From Methanobrevibacter sp. V74 (GTDB taxonomy: Archaea > Methanobacteriota > Methanobacteria > Methanobacteriales > Methanobacteriaceae), in the NCBI RefSeq assembly GCF_963082495.1, contig NZ_CAUJAN010000002.1, forward strand, positions 372,001-436,000: 64,000 nt of DNA. Reading direction: 5' to 3'. The notes beneath the pieces are model-generated. The model saw only the letters and a list, made by a program, of their open reading frames with translations. It did no database searches and was not told the origin of the DNA. The position numbers and the translations under genes were made by a program. Positions 25,701 to 44,807 of this stretch are shown piece by piece; within the stretch, counting starts at the first letter, position 1, and every line of letters begins with the position of its first letter.

Positions 25701-27445
25701 GTATCGTTGCGGGTAAACACACTTATATTGTTTCTTTCTTAGGTGATGATAATTACTTAGCATGTGACAATGTAGGCACTTTTAATGTTGTTAAAGTTGT
25801 TCCGGTTATAAGTATTGGTGAGATTTCTGGTAATGTTGGTGATACTGTTAATGTAGTTGTTACTGTTGCCGGTGGAGATGCATCTGGTTATGTTTTAATT
25901 GATGGTGTCAGTGCTGTTGTTGAAAATGGTCAGGCGACTATCCCGATCAATATTTTAAATGCTGGTGAAAATACTATTTCTGTTGTTTACACTGGTGATG
26001 ACAAATATAATGGTGGAACTCAAACCGCTACTTATGCTGCTGGTAAATACGCTTCTAAAGTCACTATTGTTCCTATTGTTAATGTGACTTATGGTAATGT
26101 TGTTGAAATTGCATATGTTATTGATAATGAAACTGAATCCGTTACCGTTTCTGTAAATGATGCTGCAGGAGGTACTTATGAGGCTGTTGTTAATAAAGGT
26201 GTAATTGCTGTAAGTAATTTACCTGTTGGAACATACACTATTACTATTAAAAATGGTGAAAACAATAAATACAGTGGATCTGAAGCTGATGCTAACTTTA
26301 TAGTATCTAAATCTGAAGTCAATATTGTTGTTAGTTCTAATACTCCTGCTTTCGGTGAAGATGCAATTGTTAGTGTAACTCTTCCTGAAGATGTAACAGG
26401 CAATGTAACTGTTACTATTAACGGTATATCTTACAAAAATACTGTTGAAAGGGGTTCTGCAACTGTAACTATTCCTGCTAATGCTTTAACTGCCGGCGAG
26501 AATAACATTACAGTTACTTACTCTGGTGATAAGAATTATGCTTCAAAAGAAGTCAAATCATCAATTAATGTTAAAAAAGCAGTTCCAAAATTCACTTCTG
26601 ATGTATCTGAAAACAATATTTATGGTGGGGATGTAACTATTACTGTTACTGCCTCTAGCGATGCTACTGGTGCAGTATCTCTCTTAGTTGACGGCAAAAT
26701 TATCTCAACTGGTAAAGATTTAGATAATGGAAAAGTTGTATTTGCAGTTGGAGGATTAGCTGCTGGTTACCACTCATATAATGTAACTTATGAAGGTGAT
26801 AACAATTATGAATCTAGTTCTAATTCAGGAGCATTTGAAGTCACTAAAGTTTCAACTGTAATTATCTCACAAAACTTCGCACAATACTCTTGTGAAGCAT
26901 CAACTGGTGAAAAAGGAGGATATTACACAATACGTTTAACTGATGTTAATGGTAACCCATTAGCAAACAAATCCGTTGGAATCGGATATAATGGTATTCT
27001 TGCATGGTATACTACTGATGAAAACGGAACTGTTAATAAATTAATTGGTTTACAAAATGCAGGCCCATACACATTTGCAACCGCATTCCTAGGTGATGAA
27101 AATTACACAGCTTCCTATGCTGTAAATAAAATCACTATTAATATGAAACCTACATATATTAAAGCCTCTGCAAAAACATATAAAGCGTCTGCTAAGACCA
27201 AAACATTTAAAGTTAAACTCACAACAGTTAATAACATTAATGGTAAAATGTATTTGAATTCTGGTAAGAAAATAACCTTGAATGTAAACGGCAAAACCTA
27301 TACTGCAAAAACAAATTCCAAAGGTATTGCAACATTTAAACTTAAACTTACCAAAAAAGGCAAATACACAGCCATGATTTCTTATGAGGGTCAATATCTG
27401 TTATATGAAAAGTCAACTAAAAGTGTAAAAATAACAATTAAATAG
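19712..27445 (+). CDS. giant adhesin-like surface protein (beta-helix plus Ig-like repeats)
   Basis: 2,577 residues. Signal peptide at residues 1-23 (KISLLIILIMTISIAAVSAA). Three right-handed beta-helix modules follow (about 60-480, 600-1010, 1130-1475), built from short repeats such as NNTAxxGGAIY and DNCTFTDNVA that resemble polymorphic outer-membrane-protein repeats. Two similar Ig-like linkers join them (for example LIITDDVGNKIVDLSFKF). Then come about nine Ig-like repeats ending 'NYxGxxKYxxS' and a lysine-rich C-terminal domain (about 2478-2577). There is no C-terminal membrane helix, so attachment to the pseudomurein wall is probably through the C-terminal domain. Such ALPs in gut Methanobrevibacter are thought to mediate contact with partner bacteria or host. 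A hairpin terminator follows. Confidence 0.93.
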   Translation: MKKFKISLLIILIMTISIAAVSAADNSSELEIAQVEDSMLDVSSDVENNVVQSTNDFEILSDEENGNNFTSLQSTIDNGGLVSLSSDYVCVDGEYEVLISKNVTLFGNNHKIDADNKGGIFKVQSGCTLTLIGVTLINGNAEYGGAIYNNGNLAISHSYLINNTATKSGGAIYDEGGNVNVFGSTFDNNIVRDLTKNDDTGGAAIHAINSNITITDSRITNNGNKSMSRTNNDLTNGAINLLSSEAHITNTLFENNTGIYGSAITALPVSGSTSKNIKIDACNFTNNVAYAGTVHIEKSSYTILNSIFTKNMATGVGSNGYTAAGGAISILYNADECLIDNCTFIKNSVTNTSNAQGGAISIEFNEVTIINSRFEENSAEIVGGAIDAYETTIIIKNCDFTGNSANTGGAISASGNTSISNSAFVDNEAANYTNAMYIWKTGSSLNLSNNTITAGEYAQIRVQNGVNVVSPLKVVILENSTKNITMAGCNITAVVTDDMDNLIIDLSFRFVVGDNEVSGIIINSTTGVYATTFIPNDDGTFVVSTNLENTSKIQTATLNIYRTLSDLVRLINDAEEDSTIVLDDDYAYNDEFDSDLKMGIVINKNIVIDGKGFVISGSDVARIFNITNANLTLLNVTIRDAKADKGAGVYVNKNSTLMAKNVNFINNTATYRGGAIYSEGKVSVVSSVFDSNDITFRVSNNDNGGAAIYNLNGTLTVTNVNVTNNLKDIVIRNGNAGDLLVGVVVTSGETLIEGSYFANNAGSWGGAISSLGYLNSENYTLTIKDTKFEGNNATFGGSVFVESSKLVVDNCTFENNRGVGIGSPGTSYTQGGAIVTFGDVASARIVDSTFVDNSADVGGAVSLAGVGVDSIIDNCTFTDNVAHSGGGAVYLRTNNDASVTIEDSKFNGNEASFGGAILSGNAKLFVTNSKFIENTAVEGGAINAAGITSVSNSNFTDNVAQSFTNAILYRSGEITLSENNITGNNGHAQIHVAEGSKIISKVKAVILDNKTINWAIVPCNVPLIITDDVGNKIVDLSFKFTLNGDETDLITYGINSSTGEYEAVFTPNQAGIFVVGLNYENESEIQTGKIIISRSLTDLKTMIDNSNENTIVLDGGYTYIEEFDSEIVNGIVVNKNIVIDGKGFVISGSDVARIFNITNANLTLLNVTICDAKADKGAGVYVNKNSTLMAKNVNFINNTATYRGGAIYSEGKVSVVSSVFDSNDITFRVSNNDNGGAAIYNLNGTLTVTNVNVTNNLKDIVIRNGNAGDLLVGVVVTSGETLIEGSYFANNAGSWGGAISSLGYLNSENYTLTIKDTKFEGNNATFGGSVFVESSKLVVDNCTFENNRGVGIGSPGTSYTQGGAIVTFGDVASARIVDSTFVDNSADVGGAVSLAGVGVDSIIDNCTFTDNVAHSGGAAVYIRTNNDASVTIEDSKFNGNVNPRGATILNDGVLKLRNNTINKINAEIYNYKIINSYINITFLGNQTLSAKLDDIVILNATFVDDNGNRVYDSYLKFSVNGETISDIKFNETTGVYTCEYKIVSAGENIISSIYNYGNVEKFIGIYNVPKENVTSFIVVTGQDNKFAYGENVTVFVSLYGVNGAGLNDNVIVIVNNTPITVNVVDGKASFNVSGFEPGQYAILGIFEGNNNYNGFKYASTTFDVLLPDKILSIEVEDIKYGEVAIVNITVTDANGEKEQGIVILNISGTDYVVRVDGKASLEIKDLPIGTYLINATLLHGSLEAEIINDTESFKVSIQDEYDMNAIGIETHCGQAVEIDVVLPEDVVDGIVSVTINGIDYTANVNNGKAVIHGPADLPIGNYSNLVVTYSGGSKYADSSVKVNLTVVGANSQLKSSAAYYVIDYEQMLIISVNADNLVSGEIDAYNNGEYYSSFDVQDALENGISISSLTVGTHNITLAYKGNQYFAPANVSVLCVVEKITPVIKSNVTQDASVGDIITINATISGHTEGNVTITVDGELVYNGKTNHGVVSVDVDSIVAGKHTYIVSFLGDDNYLACDNVGTFNVVKVVPVISIGEISGNVGDTVNVVVTVAGGDASGYVLIDGVSAVVENGQATIPINILNAGENTISVVYTGDDKYNGGTQTATYAAGKYASKVTIVPIVNVTYGNVVEIAYVIDNETESVTVSVNDAAGGTYEAVVNKGVIAVSNLPVGTYTITIKNGENNKYSGSEADANFIVSKSEVNIVVSSNTPAFGEDAIVSVTLPEDVTGNVTVTINGISYKNTVERGSATVTIPANALTAGENNITVTYSGDKNYASKEVKSSINVKKAVPKFTSDVSENNIYGGDVTITVTASSDATGAVSLLVDGKIISTGKDLDNGKVVFAVGGLAAGYHSYNVTYEGDNNYESSSNSGAFEVTKVSTVIISQNFAQYSCEASTGEKGGYYTIRLTDVNGNPLANKSVGIGYNGILAWYTTDENGTVNKLIGLQNAGPYTFATAFLGDENYTASYAVNKITINMKPTYIKASAKTYKASAKTKTFKVKLTTVNNINGKMYLNSGKKITLNVNGKTYTAKTNSKGIATFKLKLTKKGKYTAMISYEGQYLLYEKSTKSVKITIK
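21508..22439 (+). repeat. internal duplication in the large ALP, copy 1
   Basis: 932 bp (residues about 599-910) that recurs at 23101-24032, an offset of 1,593 bp. The first 140 bp carry a handful of differences, mostly synonymous; from about 21650 to 22368 I see none at all. Confidence 0.9.
23101..24032 (+). repeat. internal duplication in the large ALP, copy 2
   Basis: Second copy of the 932-bp unit (residues about 1130-1441). One early change turns Arg (cgc) into Cys (tgt) and one near the end turns GGG to GGA-type codons (Gly to Ala). After the shared end, copy 1 continues into another helix run whereas copy 2 goes to a short cap and the Ig-like region. Confidence 0.9.
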
Positions 27446-27494: not shown

Positions 27495-29257
27495 CATTCC
27501 TAGAAACTTAAGATTTTTTATTTTTTTTATCATTGTTTATTCATTGAAAATTGCTAATTTACTGATTTATTTTGCTTTAATCAGTTATTATTTATTTTAA
27601 TACTTTATTAATTAATTTTAATTTATTTATATCTAATTTTAATAATTATTAATAGTTTATTTTAAATATTATTAATTATATATATATTTATATAAGTAAT
27701 TAAAGTTTTTTAATCATGAATTTATTTGATTGGGGGTTGGATTGATGTATTCTTATGATAGATTTGTCAAAGATTTTTTCAGTTTATTTGATGTTTTTAT
27801 ATCTGAAAAATATGTAACTGAAGATAATAAGTTTATTAGAGATAGAAAAATGACTCAAAAAGAGTATACAACATTTATTCTTTCTCAAAGAAGCTGTACA
27901 TCTTATATTGAAACGATTAGATTTTTCACAATAGGATTGAATAAGAAGTTTAAAACAATTTCTAGCCAAGGAATTGGAAAACAAAGAATGTTCATTGACC
28001 CAAAAGTTTTTATTGATATGAATGAATCTTTTATTGACCAATTATATGGCAAATATTCCTGGATTTTCAAAATTTAAAGGATATATTGTTAGTGCTTGTG
28101 ATGGAAGTATTATTGATCTTCCCAATGTTACTTTAACACGTGAAGAATTCCCTGTTGGTGATGAAAACCTGTTAAAAGAAAAAAGAATTCGTGCAAGAGT
28201 TTCATGTCTTTTAGACGTTCATTCTAAACATATTTTAACAGCAAAAATTGTTGAAACAACAATAAATGAAGTAGATTTAGCAATTGAACATTTAGAGAAC
28301 TTAAAACAAAGATTAAACATTACAAAATTAATTACCATTTACGATCGAGGATATCCATCAATCGAACTCATGGCAAAAACCATTGATTTAAACTCTAAAT
28401 TTTTAATAAGACTACCAAAAAATGTATTTAGACATTTAATCAAACAAATGAAGACTAATGATGAAATTATAAAAATAAATTTAACAAATAATAGATTAAG
28501 TCATTTTGATGATGAAAATTTAAAAGAAAAAGCAAGAAAGATGGGGCGATTAGAAATTCGCATAGCATTAGTAGATATTGGTAAGAACGAACCTGAAATA
28601 CTTGCAACAAATTTAACATCTGAAGAATTCTCAACAGAAGATTTAAAAGAATTATATGGTAAAAGATGGGCAGTTGAAACTGGATTTGACAGATTAAAAA
28701 ATTTAATCGAAATCGAAGATTTCAGCGGAATTCGAAGAACAATAATCGAACAAGATTTTCACGCCCACATATTCGTTTATAACCTAGCAATGACAATTAA
28801 AAATCATGCAGAAAACAATATAACAAGAATACCCAGAAATAAAGATGAAAAAATAATTTATCAGTCGAATTTCGCAAAAATAACGGGAAACATCTATTTA
28901 TTCTTATTTGACCTAATATTTGAAACGCAAACGAAAAGAGAGCAAATAATCGATTTTATAGTAAAAGAAGCATCTAAAGAACTAATACAATATAAAGAAA
29001 ATCAATACAATAATAAAGAACGAAAAACCCCGGATGTTTATAATAAACATCCAGGAAACAAGAAAAAAAAAACACACTAATCAAATAATTTCACCAAAAA
29101 TTAGTGAGTTTTCACATCTTGTTTAATAGTTCTGTTCACAAATCATATAAAAAACTTACGAAAATCAAATCCTAATCCCAAAATAATATAACAACGTTAT
29201 CAAATAAACAGAATTAATAAAAAATTTCACATGAAAAATCTTAAGTTTCTAGGAATG
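27495..29257 (+). mobile_element. complete IS4-type insertion sequence, 1,763 bp
   Basis: The ends are perfect 24-bp inverted repeats: 27495-27518 (starts cattcctagaaacttaag) and 29234-29257. Both are flanked by the same 9 bp, tcaaatttt, at 27486-27494 and 29258-29266, the target duplication. Unmutated repeats and duplication indicate a recent insertion. It carries one split transposase gene. A half copy of the same family lies at 5430-6198. The 9-bp duplication and the Y-(2)-R-(3)-E-(6)-K motif both point to the IS4 family. Confidence 0.95.
27745..29080 (+). CDS. IS4-type transposase split over two reading frames
   Basis: DDE transposase. Frame 1 runs from ATG 27745 (purine-rich GGGGGTTGG upstream) to TAA at 28075-28077 and holds the N-terminal helical part. 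Frame 2 is open at least from ATG 28022 to 29080 and holds the catalytic core: the first Asp in ACDGS, the second in YDRGYPS, and YGKRWAVETGFDRLK, where Y-x2-R-x3-E-x6-K supplies the Glu. Homology to the half copy at 5.9 kb joins ...LYGKYS to GFSKFKGYIV, so a +1 shift near 28057-28062 would make one protein of about 445 residues. The same +1 offset is present in the diverged half copy. It is either a programmed shift or an inherited defect. Confidence 0.85.
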
Positions 29258-33610: not shown

Positions 33611-33791
33611 ATTATCTCCAGTTTATCAATATTCTATGTTTTGATTTTTAGATGTAATAAATATTTTGTAGAACCTTTTCATCATGAGTATTACTTTTTT
33701 GTCCAGATTAGTAATAATTATATCTAAATACTTATTAATTTAATTATTATAAATTATAAAATATATATTAAAAAAATTATTGGGGTATTGT

Positions 33792-36700
33792 ATGAATAAA
33801 AAATATATTTTTATAATGTTGTTATTATTGTTTTTATGTTTGCAAGTAAATTTTGCTGAAACATCTAATGATAATATAACTTTAGATGAAAATACTCAAG
33901 AGGATTTAGAAGATATTAACCCGCCAGACAAAACGATATTTATTATTTCAGATACTCCTGGGACAAACATTGTTGATTATGCTTGTGAGGAACTCTATAA
34001 TAAAGATAATTTGTCCGGGTTTAATATTGTTTTGAGAAGTGGTGAACAAGTAAAAGGCATGAAGGAGGAAGAGTTGCATTCATTATTTGTTAACTCTGAT
34101 GCATTCATTGGTGAATGGATAAGTACAGATGTCGATTCTGTTTTAACAAATTTATTGGGCAAATATCCGGAATTATCTCATAAAGAACTATTTTTAATAC
34201 TGGAACTTCCTTCTGGTAATTTAAATTCTGGTTCAACTTCATTAAACTTGATTAGAAACAATACTATAAACTATAATAAAATATTTGCCTCAAATACTAA
34301 TGATGAATTAATAGATTATTTCAATCATACCAAAAGAGGAACGTCTTATGTTAATGTTAACAATTATATTACAAATGAAGGATATAAATTTAACAGTATT
34401 TTAAATCAGTTAGTTCTCTATAAAGACCTAAACGATAAAAATAATCTTAAAAATCAAATTTTATACACTTTGAATCTTATTGGTTATAATTTTTCTTATA
34501 ATGTTCCTGATTTCACAGGCAGTAAAAATTATGGGATTTATCGTGATAGGTGGTACTCTTTAGAAGAGTATATGAGTGTATTTTTCGATGCTTCGAGGAT
34601 ACGGACTGTAGGAATTTTAGAAAGTACAATGTATATTGCATCTCAACAGTTACATCCAACAATTTCAATCATTGAATCATTAGAATCAAAGGGATATAAT
34701 GTTATTCCAGTTTATGCAGCTGGAGGATCAGCAGAACAATTACGAGTGATGGTTGAATCATGGACTAGTGCAGGTAGTGATATAGGTGGGTTTTTATTAA
34801 ATTCTTCAAATTATGATACATATGTTGATGCAATCGTGTCTATGGTTGCATATGGTGTTGGCGGTGAAAATTTCACAAAAGCAACAGATTTTTTTGAAAA
34901 AGTTGGAGTGCCTGTTTTTAGGTCAGTTCATTCAGATTATGTATCAAATGAGATGTGGGAGTTAGGATCCACAGGTCTTACAACAGAACGTAGTGATAAA
35001 TGGTGGCATATTACTATTGCTGAGACTCAGGGTATTATAGATGCAACTTTTGTTGGAGGTCAAGATTACTACATTTCAAATTTAACCGGTGCTAGAATCG
35101 TTACTTATATTCCTTATGAACGGAATGTTGATTTGTTAACTGATAGAATTGATTCATGGGTTGATTTAAAATACACTCCAAATGCTGATAAATTATTATC
35201 TATTATTTATTATAACTATCCTCCAGGAAAACAAAATATTGGTTCTAGTTACCTGAATTCAATAACAAGTATTTACAATATTCTTCATGTTTTAAAAAAT
35301 GCAGGTTATAATGTTGGACAATTGCCTTCAAGTGTTGATGAACTTGAAAATTTAATGCTTAAGTGTGGTATCAATGTAGCTACTTGGGCACCGGGAGAGC
35401 TTGAAAAATTAGCCAACCAATCAGGAATTACCCTTTTATCAGTTGATGAGTATACTGCTTGGTTTAATTCTCTAGATGAGATTGTTAAAATACAAGTTAC
35501 TCAAGGTCCGGTTGCTTATATTGGGGAACTTTCAAGAAGGGCCGTTGAGTTAAATTATACTGTAACTATTGGAGATACGATTGATGATTGGTATAATCAG
35601 GTTGTTGCGCTTCTTCCTGAAAAGAATCTAGATGGATCTAAAAGTATTTTAACCAATATTGTCAATGCTTTAAAGAGATATACCTCAACACGTGATGATA
35701 GTTATTTTATTTTATTTAAAAAATACTTTGAAAAATTTAAAAGTTTAAATATTTCAGGTTTAAATGGCTGGGGTGATGCGCCAGGTAATGTAATGGTTGT
35801 TAATAGAAATGGCAGTGATTATTTCGTTATCCCTGGTTTAACTTATGGTAATATTTTCATTGCTCCTGAACCTCAAAGAGGATGGGAATCCGATATTGAA
35901 AACTTATATCATTGTACTGCTGTTGCTCCAACTCATCAATATTTGGCCGCTTACTATTATATGCAAAATAAATACGATAATGCAATGATATTTGTTGGAA
36001 GGCATGCCACTCATGAGTGGCTGCCCGGCAAAGAGATTTTACTTTCAGTCACTGATTATGGTTCTGTTGTTGTCGGGGATGTTCCACAGTTATATTTCTA
36101 TATTGCCGATGGTCTTGCCGAAGCCATTCAAGCTAAAAGAAGAGGTTTTGCGGTAATTATTTCACACTTAACTTCTCCAATGTCTTATACTCATGTATAT
36201 GGTAATTTATCTGTCATGGCCAATAATTTAAATAATCCTGAATTGCTTCGCCAGTTAATCATCAGCAATGATTATTCTACTAATTTGGGGTTAACAAAAG
36301 AAGAGGTTCAAACAATAGATGATAATTTGATTATGGATAAGGTAAATAACTTCTTAAAAACAATGCAATCAACATTATATCCATTAGGACTTCATGCACT
36401 AGGTCAAGCTTGGAGTGATGATGATATTGCAAGTACAGTATCAGCCATGTTATCTTATAATTATGTACTCGAAAATAATCAAGGAGTGTTGAATTTATTT
36501 GATGAGCTATCAGATTATTATTATTCCCGCGGGTATAATGATTTAAATGTATTGCAAAGAGAAGCAATCTTAAATAAATCCTATGACATTGTCAATGCAT
36601 TAATTTATTGGGATACTCAAAAAGTTTATGAGTTATTAGTATCACAAGACTCTAAATTCGACAATCCTATATTTTTAGCATGTTTGGAGTTAGGTAAAAA

Positions 36701-38756
36701 ATATATTGAGTTAATTAAGTTTTCCGTCGGCAATGAATTAAATGCAATGCTTGATGGATTAAATGGGAGATACATTCCAGTTGGTGAAGGAGGAGAGTTG
36801 GTTATAAAACCGGCTATTCTTCCAACAGGCAATAACATGTTCCAAGACCAATCAAGCGAACTTCCAACAATGGAGGCTTGGGATTATGCTAAAACTTTAG
36901 CTTTATTAACTCTCGCTGGATTAAATGATACGACTGAAAAGATTATAATGGGAATTTGGTGTGTAGAAACAGCAAGAGATGACGGAGCTCTTGTTTCAAC
37001 AGTTTTATATTTATTGGGCATGAAACCAGTTTGGACAAATTCGTCAAGTGCGGGTTTTGATGATGAAGGAAACCCAACAGGTAAAAAGGTAAGTTCAATG
37101 CCTGAAGTAATTAAACTGAATAATTTAATTCGTCCTAATGGTTGGAGTAAAAAAAGAATTGATGTAACTGTAATCACTAGTGGATTATTTAGAGATTTGT
37201 ATTCTTCACAAGCTATTTTAATGGATAATGCATTTCGTGTATCACTTGCAAGATCATACTTCGCAATAATTAGAAATTCCACATTAATGAACTCAGAAAA
37301 TGGTATATATTTAAGAGAAGCTCTTGAAGGAGTAATGGAAAGTATTAATTATTATGGGGTTTCTTCAGAGGCATTGAAAAATAATTATGTAGCTCAACAT
37401 TGGATAGAAGATACTTTATACTATAAAAGTGTAGGATATAATTCTACTTACGCAGGTGAATGTGCTATAACAAGGATATTTGCACCGCCAAATGGGGATT
37501 ATGGTGCAGGAATATCAAAATTAGTATCGATGTCATGGACATGGAATGATACAAGCGAATTGGCTGATTTTTATCTTGGAAGAATGGGCAATATGTACTC
37601 TAAGAAGTATTGGGGAGATACAAATCCATTAGTTTTCTTAAGAGCACTATCAAACTCAGACACAATTGTAGCTAGTCGTAATACAAACCAGTATGGAGTT
37701 TTGGATAATGATGACTTCTTTGATTATTGGGGAGGTTTGTCAATGACTGTAGAAAAAATTTTAGGTAAAGCTCCAAAATTCAATGTATTGATGTATGCTG
37801 ATAAAAATAATGCATATATTTCATCATTGGAGGAAGTAATGTATAAAGAAATTGCTGCAAGATATGATAATCCTGAATGGATCAGTGGAATGATGAAAGA
37901 AGGTTATAGTGGAGCTCGTTATATGTCAAATAAATTTATAAGTAATTTACAGGGCTGGCAAGTAACAAGACCATCTGCAGTTTCTGATGACTTATGGAAT
38001 AGGATTTATAATACTTATTACAAGGATAAATATGGAATTGGTGTTAAAGATTGGTTAATGAAGGGTAATAATGCTTATTCACTTATTTCAATGAGCGGAA
38101 CAATGCTTACAACAATACATAAAGGTTATTGGAATGCAGATGATGAAATTATTAGGGATATAGCAAATACCTGGGCTCAAGCAACAGTTCAAAATGGTGT
38201 GGCATGTTGCGATTGTAGTTGTGGTAATATTGCAATGATGCAATGGGCTGTACAATATGTAAATCCTGATATTCTGGCTCAATTGCTTCCAAAACTATAT
38301 GACGCAACTAAAAATCCAAAATTTAAAAACAATACTCAATCAACACAACCTCCAGAAAGTGATACAAATGAAAATCAAAAAGAAGCTTCAACTCAAAATC
38401 CAGTGGAGGGTTCAAATTCCTCTTCAACAATAAAAACTAATTCAACTACAACTACAACTCAAACTAATGCTCAAAATGGTGAAAATGGATATGGTGAAGC
38501 ATTTTCAAATGTTGGTGAAAATTCACAATCTCCTCAGGCAGGACAATCCTCTTTGGAAGGTGCTGATGTTAAAAAATCAGTTGAAATCAATCCAATTACT
38601 TCACAATCAGCTAGTGAAGTTGGTTTGTCTGTTTTAGCAGTATTAGCAATTTTGTGCTTAATCATGGTCGTTGCAGTTGGATACTTTAGAGATAGCGATA
38701 AATCTAATAGAAATCAAGATTTAGATAATCTCTTCAATGAAAAATTAGGTGATTAA
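33792..38756 (+). CDS. secreted, membrane-anchored CobN-like chelatase subunit
   Basis: 1,654 residues. CobN is the large, metal- and tetrapyrrole-binding subunit of cobaltochelatase, normally cytosolic. This one has a signal peptide (MNKKYIFIMLLLLFLCLQ...) and a C-terminal membrane helix (about 1608-1632) after a Ser/Thr/Asn/Gln-rich stalk, so the body lies outside the membrane. CobN hallmarks are present: GWGDAPGNVMV near 659, then YHCTAVAPTHQY, and VGRHATHEWLPGKE at about 735-748. Near the end is an unusual CCDCSC cluster (C1472, C1473, C1475, C1477). ATG 33792 has GGGG upstream; TTG 33780 is less likely. The next three genes follow tightly as an operon. No ATPase partners (CobS/CobT or ChlI/ChlD) are nearby. 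Confidence 0.88.
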   Translation: MNKKYIFIMLLLLFLCLQVNFAETSNDNITLDENTQEDLEDINPPDKTIFIISDTPGTNIVDYACEELYNKDNLSGFNIVLRSGEQVKGMKEEELHSLFVNSDAFIGEWISTDVDSVLTNLLGKYPELSHKELFLILELPSGNLNSGSTSLNLIRNNTINYNKIFASNTNDELIDYFNHTKRGTSYVNVNNYITNEGYKFNSILNQLVLYKDLNDKNNLKNQILYTLNLIGYNFSYNVPDFTGSKNYGIYRDRWYSLEEYMSVFFDASRIRTVGILESTMYIASQQLHPTISIIESLESKGYNVIPVYAAGGSAEQLRVMVESWTSAGSDIGGFLLNSSNYDTYVDAIVSMVAYGVGGENFTKATDFFEKVGVPVFRSVHSDYVSNEMWELGSTGLTTERSDKWWHITIAETQGIIDATFVGGQDYYISNLTGARIVTYIPYERNVDLLTDRIDSWVDLKYTPNADKLLSIIYYNYPPGKQNIGSSYLNSITSIYNILHVLKNAGYNVGQLPSSVDELENLMLKCGINVATWAPGELEKLANQSGITLLSVDEYTAWFNSLDEIVKIQVTQGPVAYIGELSRRAVELNYTVTIGDTIDDWYNQVVALLPEKNLDGSKSILTNIVNALKRYTSTRDDSYFILFKKYFEKFKSLNISGLNGWGDAPGNVMVVNRNGSDYFVIPGLTYGNIFIAPEPQRGWESDIENLYHCTAVAPTHQYLAAYYYMQNKYDNAMIFVGRHATHEWLPGKEILLSVTDYGSVVVGDVPQLYFYIADGLAEAIQAKRRGFAVIISHLTSPMSYTHVYGNLSVMANNLNNPELLRQLIISNDYSTNLGLTKEEVQTIDDNLIMDKVNNFLKTMQSTLYPLGLHALGQAWSDDDIASTVSAMLSYNYVLENNQGVLNLFDELSDYYYSRGYNDLNVLQREAILNKSYDIVNALIYWDTQKVYELLVSQDSKFDNPIFLACLELGKKYIELIKFSVGNELNAMLDGLNGRYIPVGEGGELVIKPAILPTGNNMFQDQSSELPTMEAWDYAKTLALLTLAGLNDTTEKIIMGIWCVETARDDGALVSTVLYLLGMKPVWTNSSSAGFDDEGNPTGKKVSSMPEVIKLNNLIRPNGWSKKRIDVTVITSGLFRDLYSSQAILMDNAFRVSLARSYFAIIRNSTLMNSENGIYLREALEGVMESINYYGVSSEALKNNYVAQHWIEDTLYYKSVGYNSTYAGECAITRIFAPPNGDYGAGISKLVSMSWTWNDTSELADFYLGRMGNMYSKKYWGDTNPLVFLRALSNSDTIVASRNTNQYGVLDNDDFFDYWGGLSMTVEKILGKAPKFNVLMYADKNNAYISSLEEVMYKEIAARYDNPEWISGMMKEGYSGARYMSNKFISNLQGWQVTRPSAVSDDLWNRIYNTYYKDKYGIGVKDWLMKGNNAYSLISMSGTMLTTIHKGYWNADDEIIRDIANTWAQATVQNGVACCDCSCGNIAMMQWAVQYVNPDILAQLLPKLYDATKNPKFKNNTQSTQPPESDTNENQKEASTQNPVEGSNSSSTIKTNSTTTTTQTNAQNGENGYGEAFSNVGENSQSPQAGQSSLEGADVKKSVEINPITSQSASEVGLSVLAVLAILCLIMVVAVGYFRDSDKSNRNQDLDNLFNEKLGD

Positions 38757-38757
38757 T

Positions 38758-39465
38758 TTGGATGCAGTCAATATTTTATGGCAGGTAGGTATTTTATCCG
38801 CTGTTTTAATTTTTGGAATAAAATTGGGTCTTGCAACAGGTCTTGCGAATATGTCAAAGAAATATTTGGCATTGGTTTCAATTGGTTATGGTGGGGGAGT
38901 GTTAATCTTAACTGAAATTTCTTCACATTTCACAAACCAGATTACAGATTTAATTTATACCTATAACTTTGAATTCTTCTTGATCATGGCAGTAATCATG
39001 ATTTTAGCAGGAATTTTTACAATTAGAGAATATAAGGTATTTGAAAAAAATACAACTAAAGCTACATGCATGGCTGTTGTAGCACCATGCCCATGTTGTT
39101 TTGGATCAATTATTGTAAGTATAATGCTTGTTGCGCCAAGTGTTAGTTTAGGTTTGATTGATTTGAGTTTTATTGTAGCTGGAGCATTAGTTCTAACTAT
39201 TGTTTTAACCTATTTTGCATCTAATTATCTAGTTAAATTCATCAATAAACCATATCCAATTGTGCTTGGCAATTTTATGTTCTTTTTAGGAATATATTTC
39301 CTATTGTCAGCATTATTTTTACCAAACATTACAGCAATGATACAAAATCCAATGGATGCAATTACGATATCCTCACCTTACTCATTGATCGGGGCATTAA
39401 TGTTGATGATTGTAATTGTAGTGATTGGGGGATTAATTTCAAGGAGAAATAGTAATTTCAATTAA
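38758..39465 (+). CDS. DUF2162-type membrane protein (putative transporter)
   Basis: About 235 residues with six or seven membrane helices. The general look is that of the DUF2162 'predicted transporter' group of methanogens. Around residues 104-114 a membrane-adjacent motif CMAVVAPCPCCFGS offers four Cys (104, 111, 113, 114), suited to binding a soft metal. The start is probably TTG 38758, 6 bp behind GGTGA, just past the cobN stop; GTG 38749 would overlap it. Position in the CobN operon suggests it passes metal or a tetrapyrrole across the membrane, which is inference. Confidence 0.75.
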   Translation: MDAVNILWQVGILSAVLIFGIKLGLATGLANMSKKYLALVSIGYGGGVLILTEISSHFTNQITDLIYTYNFEFFLIMAVIMILAGIFTIREYKVFEKNTTKATCMAVVAPCPCCFGSIIVSIMLVAPSVSLGLIDLSFIVAGALVLTIVLTYFASNYLVKFINKPYPIVLGNFMFFLGIYFLLSALFLPNITAMIQNPMDAITISSPYSLIGALMLMIVIVVIGGLISRRNSNFN

Positions 39466-39474
39466 GGTGATTTA

Positions 39475-40119
39475 ATGGTATCGACAATTCCGGGAAGTGA
39501 AATATTAACATCAGCATTAAATATGATTTCACAAAGTTTACAAATTCCTGTAATCATATTTTTAGTAATCTTTGCCATATTTGCAATATTGGCTATTGGA
39601 GGTTTGATTTCTGAGTATACATCAAGAAAAAAGGTAACGCCTGATATTATTGAAGAGTTAATTTATTTGATTTCAAATGCTAATTCAATTGAAGATATTA
39701 AAAACATAATTAAAAATGCAAAAATTTATGAATCCCAAAAGGTTGTTTTGATTAAAATATTGCGTTCAAACTCTCTAACTCGTGATTCAAGGCATGCTCT
39801 TGCTAAAAAGCTAATTGAGTTTGAAGAGAATAACTTCACTAAAAAAATTGAAAAAACTGATGTTGTAACCCGTATCGGACCAACATTAGGATTGATGGGT
39901 ACTTTAATACCAATGGGTCCGGGTCTCGCTGCTCTTGGTGCAGGGGATGTAAATACATTGGCCAATGCTATTATTATCGCATTTGATACAACTGTCGTTG
40001 GTATTGGAGCAGGTGCAGTTGCTTATTTTGTATCTAAAGTAAGGCGTCGGTGGTATGAGGAGTATTTGTCCAATTTAGATGCTTTGGCAGATGCATTATT
40101 GGATAAATTGAATCAATAG
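39475..40119 (+). CDS. MotA/TolQ/ExbB-family proton-channel protein
   Basis: 214 residues. An N-terminal membrane helix (VIIFLVIFAIFAILAIGGLI), a charged cytosolic stretch, then the family signature: TRIGPTLGLMGTLIPMGPGLAALGAGD and NAIIIAFDTTVVGIGAGAVAYFV, the two helices that line the proton path in TolQ/ExbB/MotA. AGGTGA precedes the ATG, 9 bp after the DUF2162 gene. In bacteria this protein with ExbD or TolR turns proton motive force into motion of an envelope partner. Here the partner should be the DUF2149 protein encoded next. Confidence 0.9.
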   Translation: MVSTIPGSEILTSALNMISQSLQIPVIIFLVIFAIFAILAIGGLISEYTSRKKVTPDIIEELIYLISNANSIEDIKNIIKNAKIYESQKVVLIKILRSNSLTRDSRHALAKKLIEFEENNFTKKIEKTDVVTRIGPTLGLMGTLIPMGPGLAALGAGDVNTLANAIIIAFDTTVVGIGAGAVAYFVSKVRRRWYEEYLSNLDALADALLDKLNQ

Positions 40120-40131
40120 GAGGTTTTAGTT

Positions 40132-40464
40132 ATGGTTCGCGATAAGTCTAAAAAACGCTTTGCTGAAGGGGAAGAAGATCCAATGGCTGGAACATCAAAT
40201 CTAGTTGACGCAATGCTTGTAATAGCTGTTGGATTGTTAATTTTTGTTGTTATAAGTTGGAATATGCAAAGTGTAATATTTCAGGATTCTCAAAACCAAC
40301 AGAAGGCTATTGAAGAATCATCCTCTGATGTAACTGAGGTCAATGAAGGAAAAGTTTTGAATGAAACTCCTGATACTTCTGATGATTCTGGTTCTGGATA
40401 TATGGAAATGGGCAAAGTTTATAAAGATCCTTCAACGGGCAAATTAATCATGGTTGAAGGTTAA
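40132..40464 (+). CDS. DUF2149 protein, ExbD/TolR-like single-pass partner
   Basis: 110 residues: a short basic N-terminus, one membrane helix (VDAMLVIAVGLLIFVVI), then an acidic extracellular part. The NLVDAMLVIAVG segment aligns well with the N-terminal helix of ExbD/TolR, which has the form (I/V)DVMLVLLIIFMV; D26 matches the essential proton-carrying Asp. GGAGG stands before the ATG, 12 bp after the ExbB-like gene. The extracellular part (about 65 residues) is short compared with ExbD. The family is known by name only (DUF2149); the ExbD parallel is my inference. Confidence 0.8.
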   Translation: MVRDKSKKRFAEGEEDPMAGTSNLVDAMLVIAVGLLIFVVISWNMQSVIFQDSQNQQKAIEESSSDVTEVNEGKVLNETPDTSDDSGSGYMEMGKVYKDPSTGKLIMVEG

Positions 40465-40649
40465 AATATTCTTTTTTTATATTTTTAAGTTTTATAAATT
40501 CATTATTTTATATATGAAATAAGTAATAATAAAATTTAAATATTTATTATTTAATATAATAAAAATAAGCATATTATTATTAAATTTAATTATATTAATT
40601 ATTTTTTTTAAATAAATGCTTCGAATTTTATTAAAAAGGTTAGGGTAGA

Positions 40650-43600
40650 ATGAAATTGAAAACAAAAGTTAAAAAATTGGCATTGTCATTAACTTTATTA
40701 TTTGTTTTAATCATGGTTATTTCATCGGTTTGTGCACATGATTTGGATAATCCAACGGATAATTTAATTTGTAGTGATGATGGAAGTATTGAAAGTTCAG
40801 ATAGGGGATCTGATTCAAAATTAGCTTATTCTCAAAGCACTTCAGGCGCATACATTAATTCTGATCAGGAAGATATTACAATCACCAAAGGAGACACGCC
40901 CAATGGTTCTGGCTCTCTTGTAGATATTGATGGAAATAATCATGATGGTGAAGATTTTCCAATAACAATATCTTCAAATGAAAAAACAGCATCTCGGGAA
41001 TTATCAAATCATAAAATTAGTTGTAATTTCGATGATTCTTTGAATTTTATTGCAAGCGATAATCCATATAGTATAGAATTTGCTCCTGATGAATCTGAAT
41101 ACGGATCGGGATATTTAGAACAAGGTTCATCTGATCTGGACAAATCTTGGGTGAAATCGACTGTAAAATCAAGAGTAATTGAACCTTCATTAACATATGA
41201 GGGGGTTGTTTCTGGTGATGTAGAGGTAAATAGTACAAATCCTTGGACAATTAGTGGGGTACTTAATTATACAATTCCAAATAATGCAAAAGAAATTAAA
41301 AATGCAATAATATACATAAATATTTATTCTGGTAGTGGTAGTAATCCGAATTATGCTTTGGATTCTAATGCCAGTATTACAACTATCAACGGCAATGTGA
41401 ATCTTGGATATGAGGAACTATTGACTTTAGAATGCAGTCCGGATGCTACTGTTTATACACTTAACGGTCATGTTACAAGAGTTTATTCAGATTATCAACT
41501 TCTTTATAATGTTACTGAAATAGTCAATGGTTTAAACGGAACTTCAGTATCTGTTAATGTTGATTCTATTCAAAAGGAGGGTTATCAGTTTGATGGTAGA
41601 ATTAAATTAATCGCTTTATTATTAGCTTATGATGATGGAGATGAAGATATAATTAATTATTGGGTTGATGCTAATCAGAGGTACACAACTGAAAGCATGA
41701 ATTTAGAATTTGATACTTCTTCTATAAAATACGTTGATGAATCAATGTGGAAGAATATTCTTTTATCAAGTGCAGAGGCAAGCTATAAAATTAATTCACA
41801 ACCGGTTGATGATGCATTGGTACATGTATCTGGTCAGTATTATCAATTCAATAAATGGAATGTAACTGAAAGTCTTACTCCGGCTACTAAAACAACATTA
41901 ACTTATTCAAATAATGGGTTTTCAGCAAAATCAGTTCTTGCGGTTTTAACTGTAAAAACCCACGAAGATCCAACTGCTGAAATCAATAGCATATCTCCGG
42001 AATATTCCGGAATTGCTTATCCTGGAACTGTTAATGCATTGAATATAAAAGTTACACCAAGTAGGACAGGTAAATATATTATCCGGCTATTGGCTGATGA
42101 TGTAGTTGTAAATACTACAGAATTTGATTTGATTGGTGGTCAAAATACATTAACAATCATTGACCCAACAATTAGGGCCATTGATGAAACAACTGTTTTA
42201 AATAACAATAATAAAAATGTTAATTGGACAGTTGAGGTGGGTTACGGTGAAAACACAATCGCTACTAAAAATTTAACTGTTAAAATATTATATAATGGGT
42301 ATTTGGGCAGTGAATATGCTTATGGTATTGATGGTTATGATTCATTAATGAATATTTCCTTCACCGGAGATGTTGTTGTTGATATAAAAGGAGATTCAAC
42401 TTATATGTCTTCTGGTAATAGTGCAAGAACCGATGTTTGGGATGTTAATTTAGACAACAATTCAAATATTGCTGGCGGATTTATTATTGTTCCATATAAT
42501 TGGTTTAATTATGCAAATGGTGCAAATGTTGAAAATAGTAACATGATTAATGCCACATTTAACGGACACTCTTTAACTGCTATCGCATTTAATCATGATA
42601 ATCCAAATTTAGGATGGAACTATGGGTATGGATCTTTAATTTATGATGTAAGTGGTTTAATTAATTCTTCCGGTGAAAATTCTTTAGTTTTAAATAGGAT
42701 AATCGGCGATCCTGCTTTAAATCCAAGTATTTTTGTTTACTATTATAACACTACTGGAAGCACAACACTTAAAAACATGTACATTGTAAAGGGATATGAT
42801 TTATTTAATAATAGGTTTAATAAAGCAAATAGAACCAATCAAGCTAAATCTATAATAAATGTAGAATCTAATAAAATAACTAATGCAACTATTTATATTT
42901 TTGCAGCTGGTGCTGATAAAACAGACGGACATGTTGTTGTAAATGGGGAGATATTTGAAAATTGTTGGAATGGCGGTTCTAAAACTACTGATTTATTCCA
43001 AACTGATGTAACTAGTATTGTTAAGGATTCGAATAATGTATCTTTTGTATGCACCGGTGAGACTATTTCTTCTTTAGCTCAATTTATTGTAACATCTAAA
43101 GATTTTGCTCAGGTTACCGCTTCGATGAAAGTATTACAAAACACTAAAAACATTATTTATCCCGAGTTTAATAATACATTATCTATCACTGTTAATACAA
43201 ATAAGGCAGGTAGATATACATTTAATTTATTAGCTAATGGATTAATTGTCAATACAACTGAAATTGATTTAAATAATGGTAATAATACTTTAAGTTTGGT
43301 TGATCCTACAATTAGGCCATTGAATGAATCTGCTAAATACATTGGATCATCTGGTAGTTATAATAATGTAGATTATCAACTTCAAGTTTTATTCAATGAA
43401 GAAAAAGTAGGTGAAACTTCTTGTCAGGCTATTGTGTTATATAATGGTTATCTTGGTAAAGATATTTATAATGAAACTGGTTTAGAGCCATTTTATAATG
43501 CCACTATTACAGGCAATATTGTTTTCTTAACAAATGGAACTTATGCCTCTGGTATCAATAAATATGATTTAACAAACTTCACTGTTAATTTAACAGAAAA

Positions 43601-44807
43601 AGATTTAATTGTTAAAGCATTTTTATATGTTACATATACTTATGGTGGAGCTAATGACAATATTGACATGTTCATTGTCACTTTAAATGACAATAAATTG
43701 AATCCTGTCTTTTTTGCCCGTGATCAAAGTAATTTAAAATCCAATACTGGATCAGGTGTTGTTGTTTATGATGTAAGTAATTATATCATAAATGGTACTA
43801 ATGTATTGGATTTAAATAAAACAGGTTCTGCAGGAGTTTATCCAGCAACTTTAGTTTATATGTATAATACTACTGGCAGTAAACTTATAAAAGAAGTTTA
43901 TATTTCTAACGGAGCTGATTTATTAGGTACTTATGGGGGATTAAACAACCCTATTCAAGTTAATTCACTCATCAATGTTGATTCATCAGGCATGATTAAT
44001 GCTACTGCTTATATTTTCGCTAATGGTGCTGTAGATGGTAGAGGTACTGTTGTAATAAATGGGGAAAGTGAAAGTCATCCGTGGAAGGGTTCATCTTTAT
44101 CAACAGATTTATATGTAAAAGATATGACCTCTACAATTAATGATAAAAACAATATTTCCGTAATATTCAGCGGAACTTCTGGCAGCTTTACAGTATTGCA
44201 ACAAATCATTGTTTTAACCAAGAAGGTTCCTGAAAAACTTCCAACCAAAATTATTGCTCCTAGTGTAAAAACAGTTTATAACTCCAATAAAAAATTAATT
44301 GTAACTTTAAAAGACAGTAATGGAAATTTAATTGCCAATGCTAAGATTACCATAGTTTTAAATGGTCAATCTAGTGAAATAATTACAAAGGAGAACGGTC
44401 AAACTAGTTTATCTATTCCAAGTAAATTATCTCCAAAAGACTATACTGTAAGCATTTCATATGATGGTGATGAAACACATATTAAATCCACCGCTATTAC
44501 AAAAGTTATAGTTAAAAAAGCAACTCCTAAACTAATCGCCAAAAAGAAAACTTTCAAAGCTAAAGAAAAAATCAAAAAATATAAAATTGTTTTAAAAGAC
44601 AATGGATATAAGGCTATGAAGAAAGTAAAGGTTAAACTCAGAATTAAAGGCAAAATCTATAATGCAAAAACTAATTCTAAAGGTAAAGCAGTCTTTAAGA
44701 TTAAAAAGTTAACTAAAAAAGGAAAATACACAGCTAAAGTTATATTTAATGGTAGCAAATGTTTTAACGCAGTAAGTAAAAAAGTCAAAATCTATATTAA
44801 AAAATAG
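40650..44807 (+). CDS. adhesin-like surface protein with DUF3344-type repeats
   Basis: 1,385 residues. Signal peptide (LALSLTLLFVLIMVISSVCA). After an acidic linker there are three related units of about 330 residues beginning near 175, 460 and 830. Each holds a beta-sandwich with 'DVWDVNL... IIVPY' or 'KAFLYVTYTYGG' type strands and an Ig-like 'GKYIIRLLADDVVVNTTEFDL' segment, the look of DUF3344 surface proteins. A Big_3-like Ig domain and a very basic C-terminal domain (about 1290-1385) follow; the latter matches the C-terminus of the 2,577-residue ALP. It lies 185 bp after the CobN module, with its own TATA-rich leader, so co-regulation is possible but not shown. Confidence 0.88.
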   Translation: MKLKTKVKKLALSLTLLFVLIMVISSVCAHDLDNPTDNLICSDDGSIESSDRGSDSKLAYSQSTSGAYINSDQEDITITKGDTPNGSGSLVDIDGNNHDGEDFPITISSNEKTASRELSNHKISCNFDDSLNFIASDNPYSIEFAPDESEYGSGYLEQGSSDLDKSWVKSTVKSRVIEPSLTYEGVVSGDVEVNSTNPWTISGVLNYTIPNNAKEIKNAIIYINIYSGSGSNPNYALDSNASITTINGNVNLGYEELLTLECSPDATVYTLNGHVTRVYSDYQLLYNVTEIVNGLNGTSVSVNVDSIQKEGYQFDGRIKLIALLLAYDDGDEDIINYWVDANQRYTTESMNLEFDTSSIKYVDESMWKNILLSSAEASYKINSQPVDDALVHVSGQYYQFNKWNVTESLTPATKTTLTYSNNGFSAKSVLAVLTVKTHEDPTAEINSISPEYSGIAYPGTVNALNIKVTPSRTGKYIIRLLADDVVVNTTEFDLIGGQNTLTIIDPTIRAIDETTVLNNNNKNVNWTVEVGYGENTIATKNLTVKILYNGYLGSEYAYGIDGYDSLMNISFTGDVVVDIKGDSTYMSSGNSARTDVWDVNLDNNSNIAGGFIIVPYNWFNYANGANVENSNMINATFNGHSLTAIAFNHDNPNLGWNYGYGSLIYDVSGLINSSGENSLVLNRIIGDPALNPSIFVYYYNTTGSTTLKNMYIVKGYDLFNNRFNKANRTNQAKSIINVESNKITNATIYIFAAGADKTDGHVVVNGEIFENCWNGGSKTTDLFQTDVTSIVKDSNNVSFVCTGETISSLAQFIVTSKDFAQVTASMKVLQNTKNIIYPEFNNTLSITVNTNKAGRYTFNLLANGLIVNTTEIDLNNGNNTLSLVDPTIRPLNESAKYIGSSGSYNNVDYQLQVLFNEEKVGETSCQAIVLYNGYLGKDIYNETGLEPFYNATITGNIVFLTNGTYASGINKYDLTNFTVNLTEKDLIVKAFLYVTYTYGGANDNIDMFIVTLNDNKLNPVFFARDQSNLKSNTGSGVVVYDVSNYIINGTNVLDLNKTGSAGVYPATLVYMYNTTGSKLIKEVYISNGADLLGTYGGLNNPIQVNSLINVDSSGMINATAYIFANGAVDGRGTVVINGESESHPWKGSSLSTDLYVKDMTSTINDKNNISVIFSGTSGSFTVLQQIIVLTKKVPEKLPTKIIAPSVKTVYNSNKKLIVTLKDSNGNLIANAKITIVLNGQSSEIITKENGQTSLSIPSKLSPKDYTVSISYDGDETHIKSTAITKVIVKKATPKLIAKKKTFKAKEKIKKYKIVLKDNGYKAMKKVKVKLRIKGKIYNAKTNSKGKAVFKIKKLTKKGKYTAKVIFNGSKCFNAVSKKVKIYIKK

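Follow-up and report, generated by a model that had tools for sequence, protein, structure and literature searches.

A set of four genes on the forward strand at positions 33,792 to 40,464 of a 64,000-nucleotide stretch of the Methanobrevibacter sp. V74 genome (contig NZ_CAUJAN010000002.1, positions 372,001 to 436,000, referred to in full as the window) encodes a CobN-like protein predicted to be secreted, a polytopic DUF2162 protein, a MotA/TolQ/ExbB-family protein and a single-pass DUF2149 protein. Judged by sequence, three of the four are homologous to HmuS, HmuU and HmuV of the Bacteroidota, and repeated AGTAWTACT palindromes upstream of the operon in related genomes also occur beside nickel genes. 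We give about even odds to the reading that the set acquires metal under nickel starvation, as a motor-driven cousin of HmuSTUV that works without TonB. New here are the description of the archaeal set as a variant of HmuSTUV, the boxes held in common with nickel genes and the swap of FeoAB and motor modules beside related CobN genes. The four genes are as follows.

33792..38756, + strand: CobN-like ectoprotein, relative of HmuS, 1654 aa when read from its ATG (PF02514, E 9.9e-216)
38749..39465, + strand: polytopic DUF2162 protein of the membrane and putative metal permease, carrying an APCPCCFG motif (PF09930, E 3.2e-66)
39475..40119, + strand: MotA/TolQ/ExbB-family protein, HmuU homologue, with the channel domain and the shared GTLIPxGPxL core (PF01618, E 8.3e-10)
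40132..40464, + strand: DUF2149 single-pass protein, HmuV homologue (PF09919, E 2.7e-22)

Kinship with HmuSTUV

The best sequence match of the CobN-like protein in the PDB was HmuS of Bacteroides (PDB 9d26, E 8e-86), and the same kind of search returned no relative of DUF2162 or DUF2149. HmuU was found with the archaeal ExbB profile in five of six Bacteroidota loci (E 9.6e-40 to 1.7e-42) and HmuV with the DUF2149 profile in three of six (E 1.6e-12 to 2.7e-13), one HmuV also matching PF09919 at 1.1e-34. Profile-profile comparison scored HmuU and the ExbB-like protein at 99.9% and HmuV and DUF2149 at 97%. An identification of DUF2162 with HmuT was rejected (profile-profile 0.4-1.5%), DUF2162 occupying the place of HmuT in the gene order. 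A preliminary description of this DNA had regarded the system as one of a new type, and it is only partly so, with three of its proteins homologous to Hmu proteins and HmuS characterised.

HmuS has been characterised as a haem dechelatase with a methionine-rich insertion that converts haem to protoporphyrin IX in an NADH-dependent manner, and in the accessible text of that study HmuU/V are drawn as powering HmuR and the archaeal use of HmuS/CobN homologues is left unclear (PMC12583661, EMBO J 2025). HmuTUV has been placed at the inner membrane in the available part of another report (PMC13227078, Front Microbiol 2026), while passages elsewhere describe the Bacteroidota hmu genes, ExbB and DUF2149 included, as iron-regulated (PMC10434189) and treat BtuS1/2 and FeoAB in B. 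fragilis (PMC6460266). A search with a piece of HmuS matched 244 places, of which the best 80 were kept, on contigs titled nearly all as Bacteroidota and in some cases cut by contig ends. Fifty of these contigs carried all four genes (S, U, V and one for a polytopic T), ten had no recognised V, twelve had S alone and eight had other mixtures. Canonical ExbD genes were present in all four Bacteroidota genomes tested (21 matches), so that HmuU and HmuV would be free for another task.

The window's set thus shares with HmuSTUV (hmuYRSTUV; BtuS in B. fragilis) a secreted and anchored CobN-like protein, a polytopic protein, an ExbB-like protein and a DUF2149 protein in identical order, the HmuU and HmuV homologues lying downstream of the CobN-like gene. 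It differs in that DUF2162 is not detectably homologous to HmuT, in that the haem ligands of HmuS are not kept, in the nickel-type boxes of its archaeal relatives and in that HmuY and HmuR were not found nearby, where the scanned ORFs (open reading frames) belonged to other families or had no match and no genome-wide HmuY/HmuR search was made.

The tight packing of the four genes and the secretion and C-terminal anchoring of the first, as proposed in the preliminary description, were confirmed by ORF calls, Pfam matches and hydropathy. The CobN-like ORF ends at 38756 and may start at a TTG (33780) or at the ATG (33792). By hydropathy only, its N-terminus, MNKKYIFIMLLLLFLCLQVNFAET, resembles a signal peptide, and its C-terminus has one transmembrane helix near residue 1610, with a short charged tail after it. 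A GTG start would place DUF2162 in an 8 bp overlap with CobN and a TTG start behind a 1 bp gap, and the next two genes follow after 9 and 12 bp. Two absences proposed earlier also held: TonB_C had no match across the genome, and no good ChlI-type ATPase was found there (PF01078 gave five partial matches, the best with E 4.7e-9). CobS/CobT or ChlI/ChlD partners were not found near the CobN-like gene, the VWA partner not having been sought genome-wide. The genome carries two ORFs with CbiX domains elsewhere.

Compared with the class I chelatases CobN and ChlH, the window protein retains the body domain and the superfamily histidine, which lies in GRHATHEW from residue 736 and is the counterpart of HmuS His538 in HFG(T/A)HG. 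It differs from them in being predicted secreted and anchored, in an extra C-terminal cysteine motif and in having no AAA+/VWA partners nearby. His1209 and Glu1212 of HmuS (LSLDHxxEFMGG) are both replaced by Asp in the window's LDNDDFFDYWGG, from residue 1304, and the haem ligands Met79 and His254 by Ile and Ala, in head and neck regions where the alignment is weak. As Met79, His254 and His1209 are not kept, the protein is by its residues a relative of HmuS and not an HmuS. His1209 was rejected as a mark of HmuS only, since LDHYYEF also occurs in archaeal cytosolic CobN rows.

The cysteine motif, CCDCSC from residue 1472, has counterparts in HmuS (CSGFVC.N) and in most archaeal ectoproteins (CC[D/H][C/H][S/T]C or CSGS[V/I]C), and four aligned archaeal cytosolic CobN rows stop before its position. 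It is missing from one of ten HmuS rows (L183). Eight ecto-type rows of archaea (L241-L248) and one of the CobN proteins in L082 are without it too, so it was rejected as a general mark of archaeal ectoproteins. A second secreted CobN-like protein, with CCHHTCK and DSDDYYDWFGG, is encoded at L034 7692-12572 (G000:C3) without motor genes or boxes, and its clade was present in 12 of 15 same-family genomes surveyed.

PCPCC was kept in 29 of 29 CobN-linked DUF2162 copies examined, those of L214 and L235 having been missed by the regular expression and confirmed by eye. No joint loss of the cysteine motifs of CobN and DUF2162 occurred in the 29 linked pairs, many of which are close relatives; DUF2162 of L022 and L023, not counted among these pairs, has PCPCYF instead. 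In DUF2149 the transmembrane helix begins at an invariant N-x-x-D, the position of the ExbD aspartate. An identity of DUF2149 with ExbD was not shown by profile comparison (0.5-7%, Asp aligned), which is insensitive here, as the archaeal ExbB profile scored only 10% against E. coli ExbB. The pair resembles the TonB-ExbB-ExbD and Tol-Pal motors in joining a MotA/TolQ/ExbB-family channel protein to a single-pass partner, and differs from TonB-ExbB-ExbD in the lack of TonB_C from the genome and in an alignment of DUF2149 with ExbD at the Asp position only.

Three further ExbB-DUF2149 pairs occur elsewhere in the genome with other partners (L074, L075, L076): the first has only DUF2162 with it, the second a secreted FmdE-domain protein of 985 aa, and the third adjoins FecCD, periplasmic-binding and FmdE genes; PCPCC is absent from the seven-transmembrane proteins of the last two. 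A fifth MotA/ExbB gene (L077, G000:C3:209073-209426) is more canonical and has no DUF2149 beside it.

Genomic linkage and the CobN tree

Among 151 genomes of the phylum, CobN was found in 118 and DUF2149 in 135. Linkage was surveyed in 23 genomes picked for few contigs, counting CobN ORFs longer than 1000 aa with DUF2162 or ExbB within 6 kb. Eighteen of 73 CobN ORFs were linked, a low share that is due to the existence of several other CobN paralogue classes. In the window's own CobN clade nine of 12 rows were linked, which places the arrangement beyond chance, and in the other three DUF3344 stood beside CobN. Routine separation of the four genes, which would have refuted the preliminary description, is not seen in this clade, although 55 of the 73 surveyed CobN ORFs stand apart. 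Of 51 distinct ExbB ORFs, 44 came after a DUF2162-type gene and 49 were followed by DUF2149; these ORFs derive from stretches selected via CobN or DUF2149 and not from a random sample.

HmuS branched among the ecto-CobN proteins, on the same side as the window's CobN and apart from the FeoAB-linked and L034-type clades, with support of 94 (LG) and 98 (mixture model, 39 rows), in a tree with a long HmuS branch and an outgroup of archaeal cytosolic CobN only, free of bacterial CobN or ChlH. The motor/permease label needs eight changes on the full tree, so that the motor module would have been gained or lost repeatedly.

Another ecto-CobN was followed by FeoB on the same strand at 329-368 bp in five of five surveyed genomes of one genus (G143, G144, G145, G148, G149). 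In L224, the single stretch tested for FeoA, that gene lies between the two. FeoB was identified by Pfam in L081 and by similarity to L081 in the others, and the genera of the compared genomes are putative assignments. The nearest relatives of this CobN come from two other genera (L082, L194) and have the motor module instead; the clade is supported at 99 (LG) and 94 (mixture model). This swap within one CobN clade suggests that FeoAB and motor modules both import the released metal ion. The FeoAB arrangement of these Methanothermobacter-like genomes is like that of the window in that a CobN-like ectoenzyme adjoins a divalent metal importer, and unlike it in that FeoB stands in place of the motor module. 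A FeoB beside CobN in L201 was discounted (4.7 kb off, intervening genes, weak match), and supposed ABC-transporter neighbours in L206 and L237 proved wrong, the genes coding for a flippase-type protein, Ftr, phosphoesterase, DHODH and an AI-2E-type transporter.

A first look gave 6-13 CobN candidates each in the same-order or same-class relatives G001, G003, G004, G143, G144, G145, G148 and G149, an expansion of CobN paralogues. The CobN of the motor operon is split in L250 (G143), with the adjoining DUF2162, ExbB and DUF2149 all open, and is interrupted by stops in a second genome of the same genus (G150:C1:985055-987406). Elsewhere in the window, positions 19712-27445 encode an adhesin-like protein of 2577 aa that contains a long internal duplication with nearly identical copies, and 27730-29080 hold what we take to be a transposase gene, split over ORFs of 115 and 352 aa that overlap.

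Boxes shared with nickel genes

The boxes of the window and the gene downstream of the operon are listed below.

33687..33695, no strand: operator-like box, perfect AGTATTACT, upstream of the CobN-like gene
33710..33718, no strand: another box, with a single mismatch (AGTAATAAT), also upstream of the CobN-like gene
40522..40530, no strand: single-mismatch box that lies upstream of the DUF3344 gene
40650..44807, + strand: secreted DUF3344/Ig-like surface protein, which recurs beside the operon and in relatives has the same boxes; possibly a capture protein

In same-family relatives repeated AGTAWTACT palindromes were found upstream of the operon CobN and DUF3344 genes. A perfect box lay within 350 bp upstream of window-type CobN in 16 of 17 cases (at least two boxes in 13) and of DUF3344 in 14 of 21, compared with 2/23 for other CobN, 1/28 for DUF2162, 0/30 for ExbB and 9/252 for other ORFs. 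ORFs below 150 aa or with less than 200 bp upstream were left out of this count, among them the CobN of L097 and of L106; the L106 stretch contains no box. Of the other CobN, the two that had boxes were L231, which belongs to the window's clade in the tree, and one CobN of L194, while L233, also of that clade, was counted among the other CobN without a box.

Pairs of boxes 16-46 bp apart (start to start) numbered 2-12 per genome in 12 genomes, at least 82 pairs in all, and the reversed-pattern control gave none in any genome tested. The neighbours of box clusters were identified in 40 stretches from 11 of these genomes (none from G103), with names from NCBIfam/Pfam matches of one or two representatives each. 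Among the matches listed were NikA-like binding proteins of about 540 aa (TIGR02294) in 12 cases, heavy-metal P-type ATPases in nine, CbiM/NikM in eight (two examples followed by genes sized like N, Q and O), and Hmd and HmdC in four each. In the genome of strain V74 itself, four boxes at L303 4779-4939 (G000:C1:273278) precede a heavy-metal P-type ATPase gene, and the family is found at boxes in eight other genomes likewise.

CobN1 and NikR1 of M. marburgensis were high only under nickel limitation, and a transporter, MTBMA_c10530, also rose and was proposed for nickel transport, according to the available portions of one report (PMC12350162, Nature 2025). Hmd rises under nickel limitation in the same organism in the excerpts of two studies (PMC3087415, PMC12350162), and a CobN-like gene across MTBMA_c10550-10570 had been proposed as a nickel chelatase in the accessible part of the earlier one (Kaster 2011, PMC3087415). 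As this gene fits the split CobN, DUF2162, ExbB and DUF2149 of L250 (G143), MTBMA_c10530 should be DUF2162 or ExbB of the orthologous operon. The window's system would accordingly share with CobN1/MTBMA_c10530 an increase under nickel limitation and a transporter tag inside an apparently orthologous operon, whereas the available text of PMC12350162 describes neither the operon, the kinship to HmuS nor a mechanism and does not specify the CobN1 gene. Likewise, a literature search in which subscription papers were mostly outside reach, and the sources partly accessible, returned, among the papers listed, none that relates the four archaeal genes to HmuSTUV or describes their boxes; background on haem and nickel in methanogens is found in the accessible parts of PMC8351635, PMC2667541 and PMC10617489.

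Since the boxes are common to the operon, DUF3344, CbiM/NikM, NikA-like, hmd/hmdC and metal-ATPase genes, and Hmd is induced by nickel limitation, the operon and DUF3344 most likely belong, on genomic evidence, to a nickel-starvation regulon in the two closest genera. NikR would be a candidate regulator acting at the boxes. The sharing of boxes with nickel genes in relatives suggests that nickel is the best-supported metal.

Proposed function and alternatives

In the proposed nickel system the CobN-like ectoenzyme, outside the single membrane, would bind a metallo-tetrapyrrole in its chelatase cleft, such as F430 or a different Ni-tetrapyrrole set free by cell lysis, and would release the metal in reverse-chelatase fashion. 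The ion could then pass via the C-terminal CCDCSC cluster to the PCPCC site of DUF2162 in a cysteine relay, and the ExbB-like/DUF2149 pair would use an ion gradient to power DUF2162, or else the ectoenzyme, and so bring the metal in against its own gradient, with no part played by TonB or an outer membrane. We infer the removal of metal rather than its insertion, nickel as the metal, the relay and the target of the motor. The specific version, with extracellular demetallation of a Ni-tetrapyrrole, such as the F430 of dead methanogens, by a secreted reverse chelatase, import through DUF2162 driven by an ExbB/ExbD-type motor and HmuU/HmuV then serving HmuS/HmuT, is held only tentatively. The preliminary description had envisaged a motor-coupled extracytoplasmic capture or remodelling of a metal-tetrapyrrole, and this remains the best kind of reading, with nickel suggested by the boxes in relatives in preference to the cobalt or B12 side of that proposal.

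Several observations weigh against nickel acquisition. Two perfect boxes in the 64-kb window are within chance (0.78 expected; 20 of 100 shuffles reach two), and near the operon there are only one perfect and two one-mismatch boxes. Box clusters also adjoin, among the matches listed, QueG-like (7), GNAT (6) and ABC-ATPase-type (4) genes and single TatD and IF-2B-like genes; the GNAT, QueG-like, TatD and IF-2B-like families have no known nickel role, many of these genes being divergent neighbours, and four clusters have no gene of at least 90 aa within 450 bp. Boxes are rare outside the two closest genera, where only two perfect ones were seen in the upstream regions tested (FmdE in L250, a DUF3344-type gene in L217), and the CbiM at boxes could carry cobalt. 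No perfect box occurs at the other three motor modules of the genome, so that the motor is not bound to nickel in general. The match to M. marburgensis follows tag order and position, with G143 presumably that organism, and the cysteines of the motifs may be structural. Finally, two CobN-like 'BtuS' proteins of M. barkeri respond to the source of iron and sulfur and have been suggested for metalloporphyrin salvage, without an operon, in the available text of PMC10846266.

The last result, with the iron regulation of the Bacteroidota hmu genes (both sources being partly accessible), the homology to HmuS/U/V and the FeoAB genes beside a related CobN clade, would fit haem-iron acquisition as in Bacteroidota, in which the ectoenzyme takes iron from gut haem and the motor imports Fe2+ or haem. 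We consider this unlikely, though less so than the other rivals: Met79, His254 and His1209 are not kept (allowing for the weak head and neck alignment), and the boxes accompany nickel genes and are missing from the genome's own FeoB stretch (L259, 3.5 kb searched).

Somewhat more doubtful is salvage of cobalt or corrinoids by an ectoenzyme that remodels or demetallates cobamides. The CobN body and the CbiM among box-bearing genes are compatible with it, as is the own-genome ExbB-DUF2149 module beside FecCD/periplasmic-binding genes, which may be B12 transporters. However, hmd/hmdC and NikA-like genes at the same boxes point to nickel, there were no cob genes among the neighbours examined, and cobalt is hard to remove from corrins.

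A motor that drives DUF3344 adhesin-like surface proteins rather than uptake, like Tol-type motors in envelope remodelling, would account for the frequent linkage of DUF3344 and the boxes in common; several copies of the module have no DUF3344 beside them, whereas the DUF2162-type gene precedes ExbB in 44 of 51, and we regard this idea as improbable. Biosynthetic metal insertion by a true chelatase, such as that of nickel into an F430 precursor, appears very improbable despite the CobN/ChlH homology and the Kaster 2011 proposal noted above, given a CobN-like protein that is predicted secreted and anchored, the lack of a good ChlI-type ATPase match in the genome and the separate CbiX-type chelatases.

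The methane-forming chemistry of methanogens depends on nickel enzymes, and one archaeal HmuS/CobN clade now gains operon partners, a candidate regulon and a candidate metal. If the specific version above is correct, the set would represent a class of inner-membrane metal transporter energised directly by an ion-gradient motor. By homology, HmuU and HmuV of gut Bacteroides would then work for HmuS and HmuT in the inner membrane rather than for the TonB-dependent receptor, which calls their published role into question.

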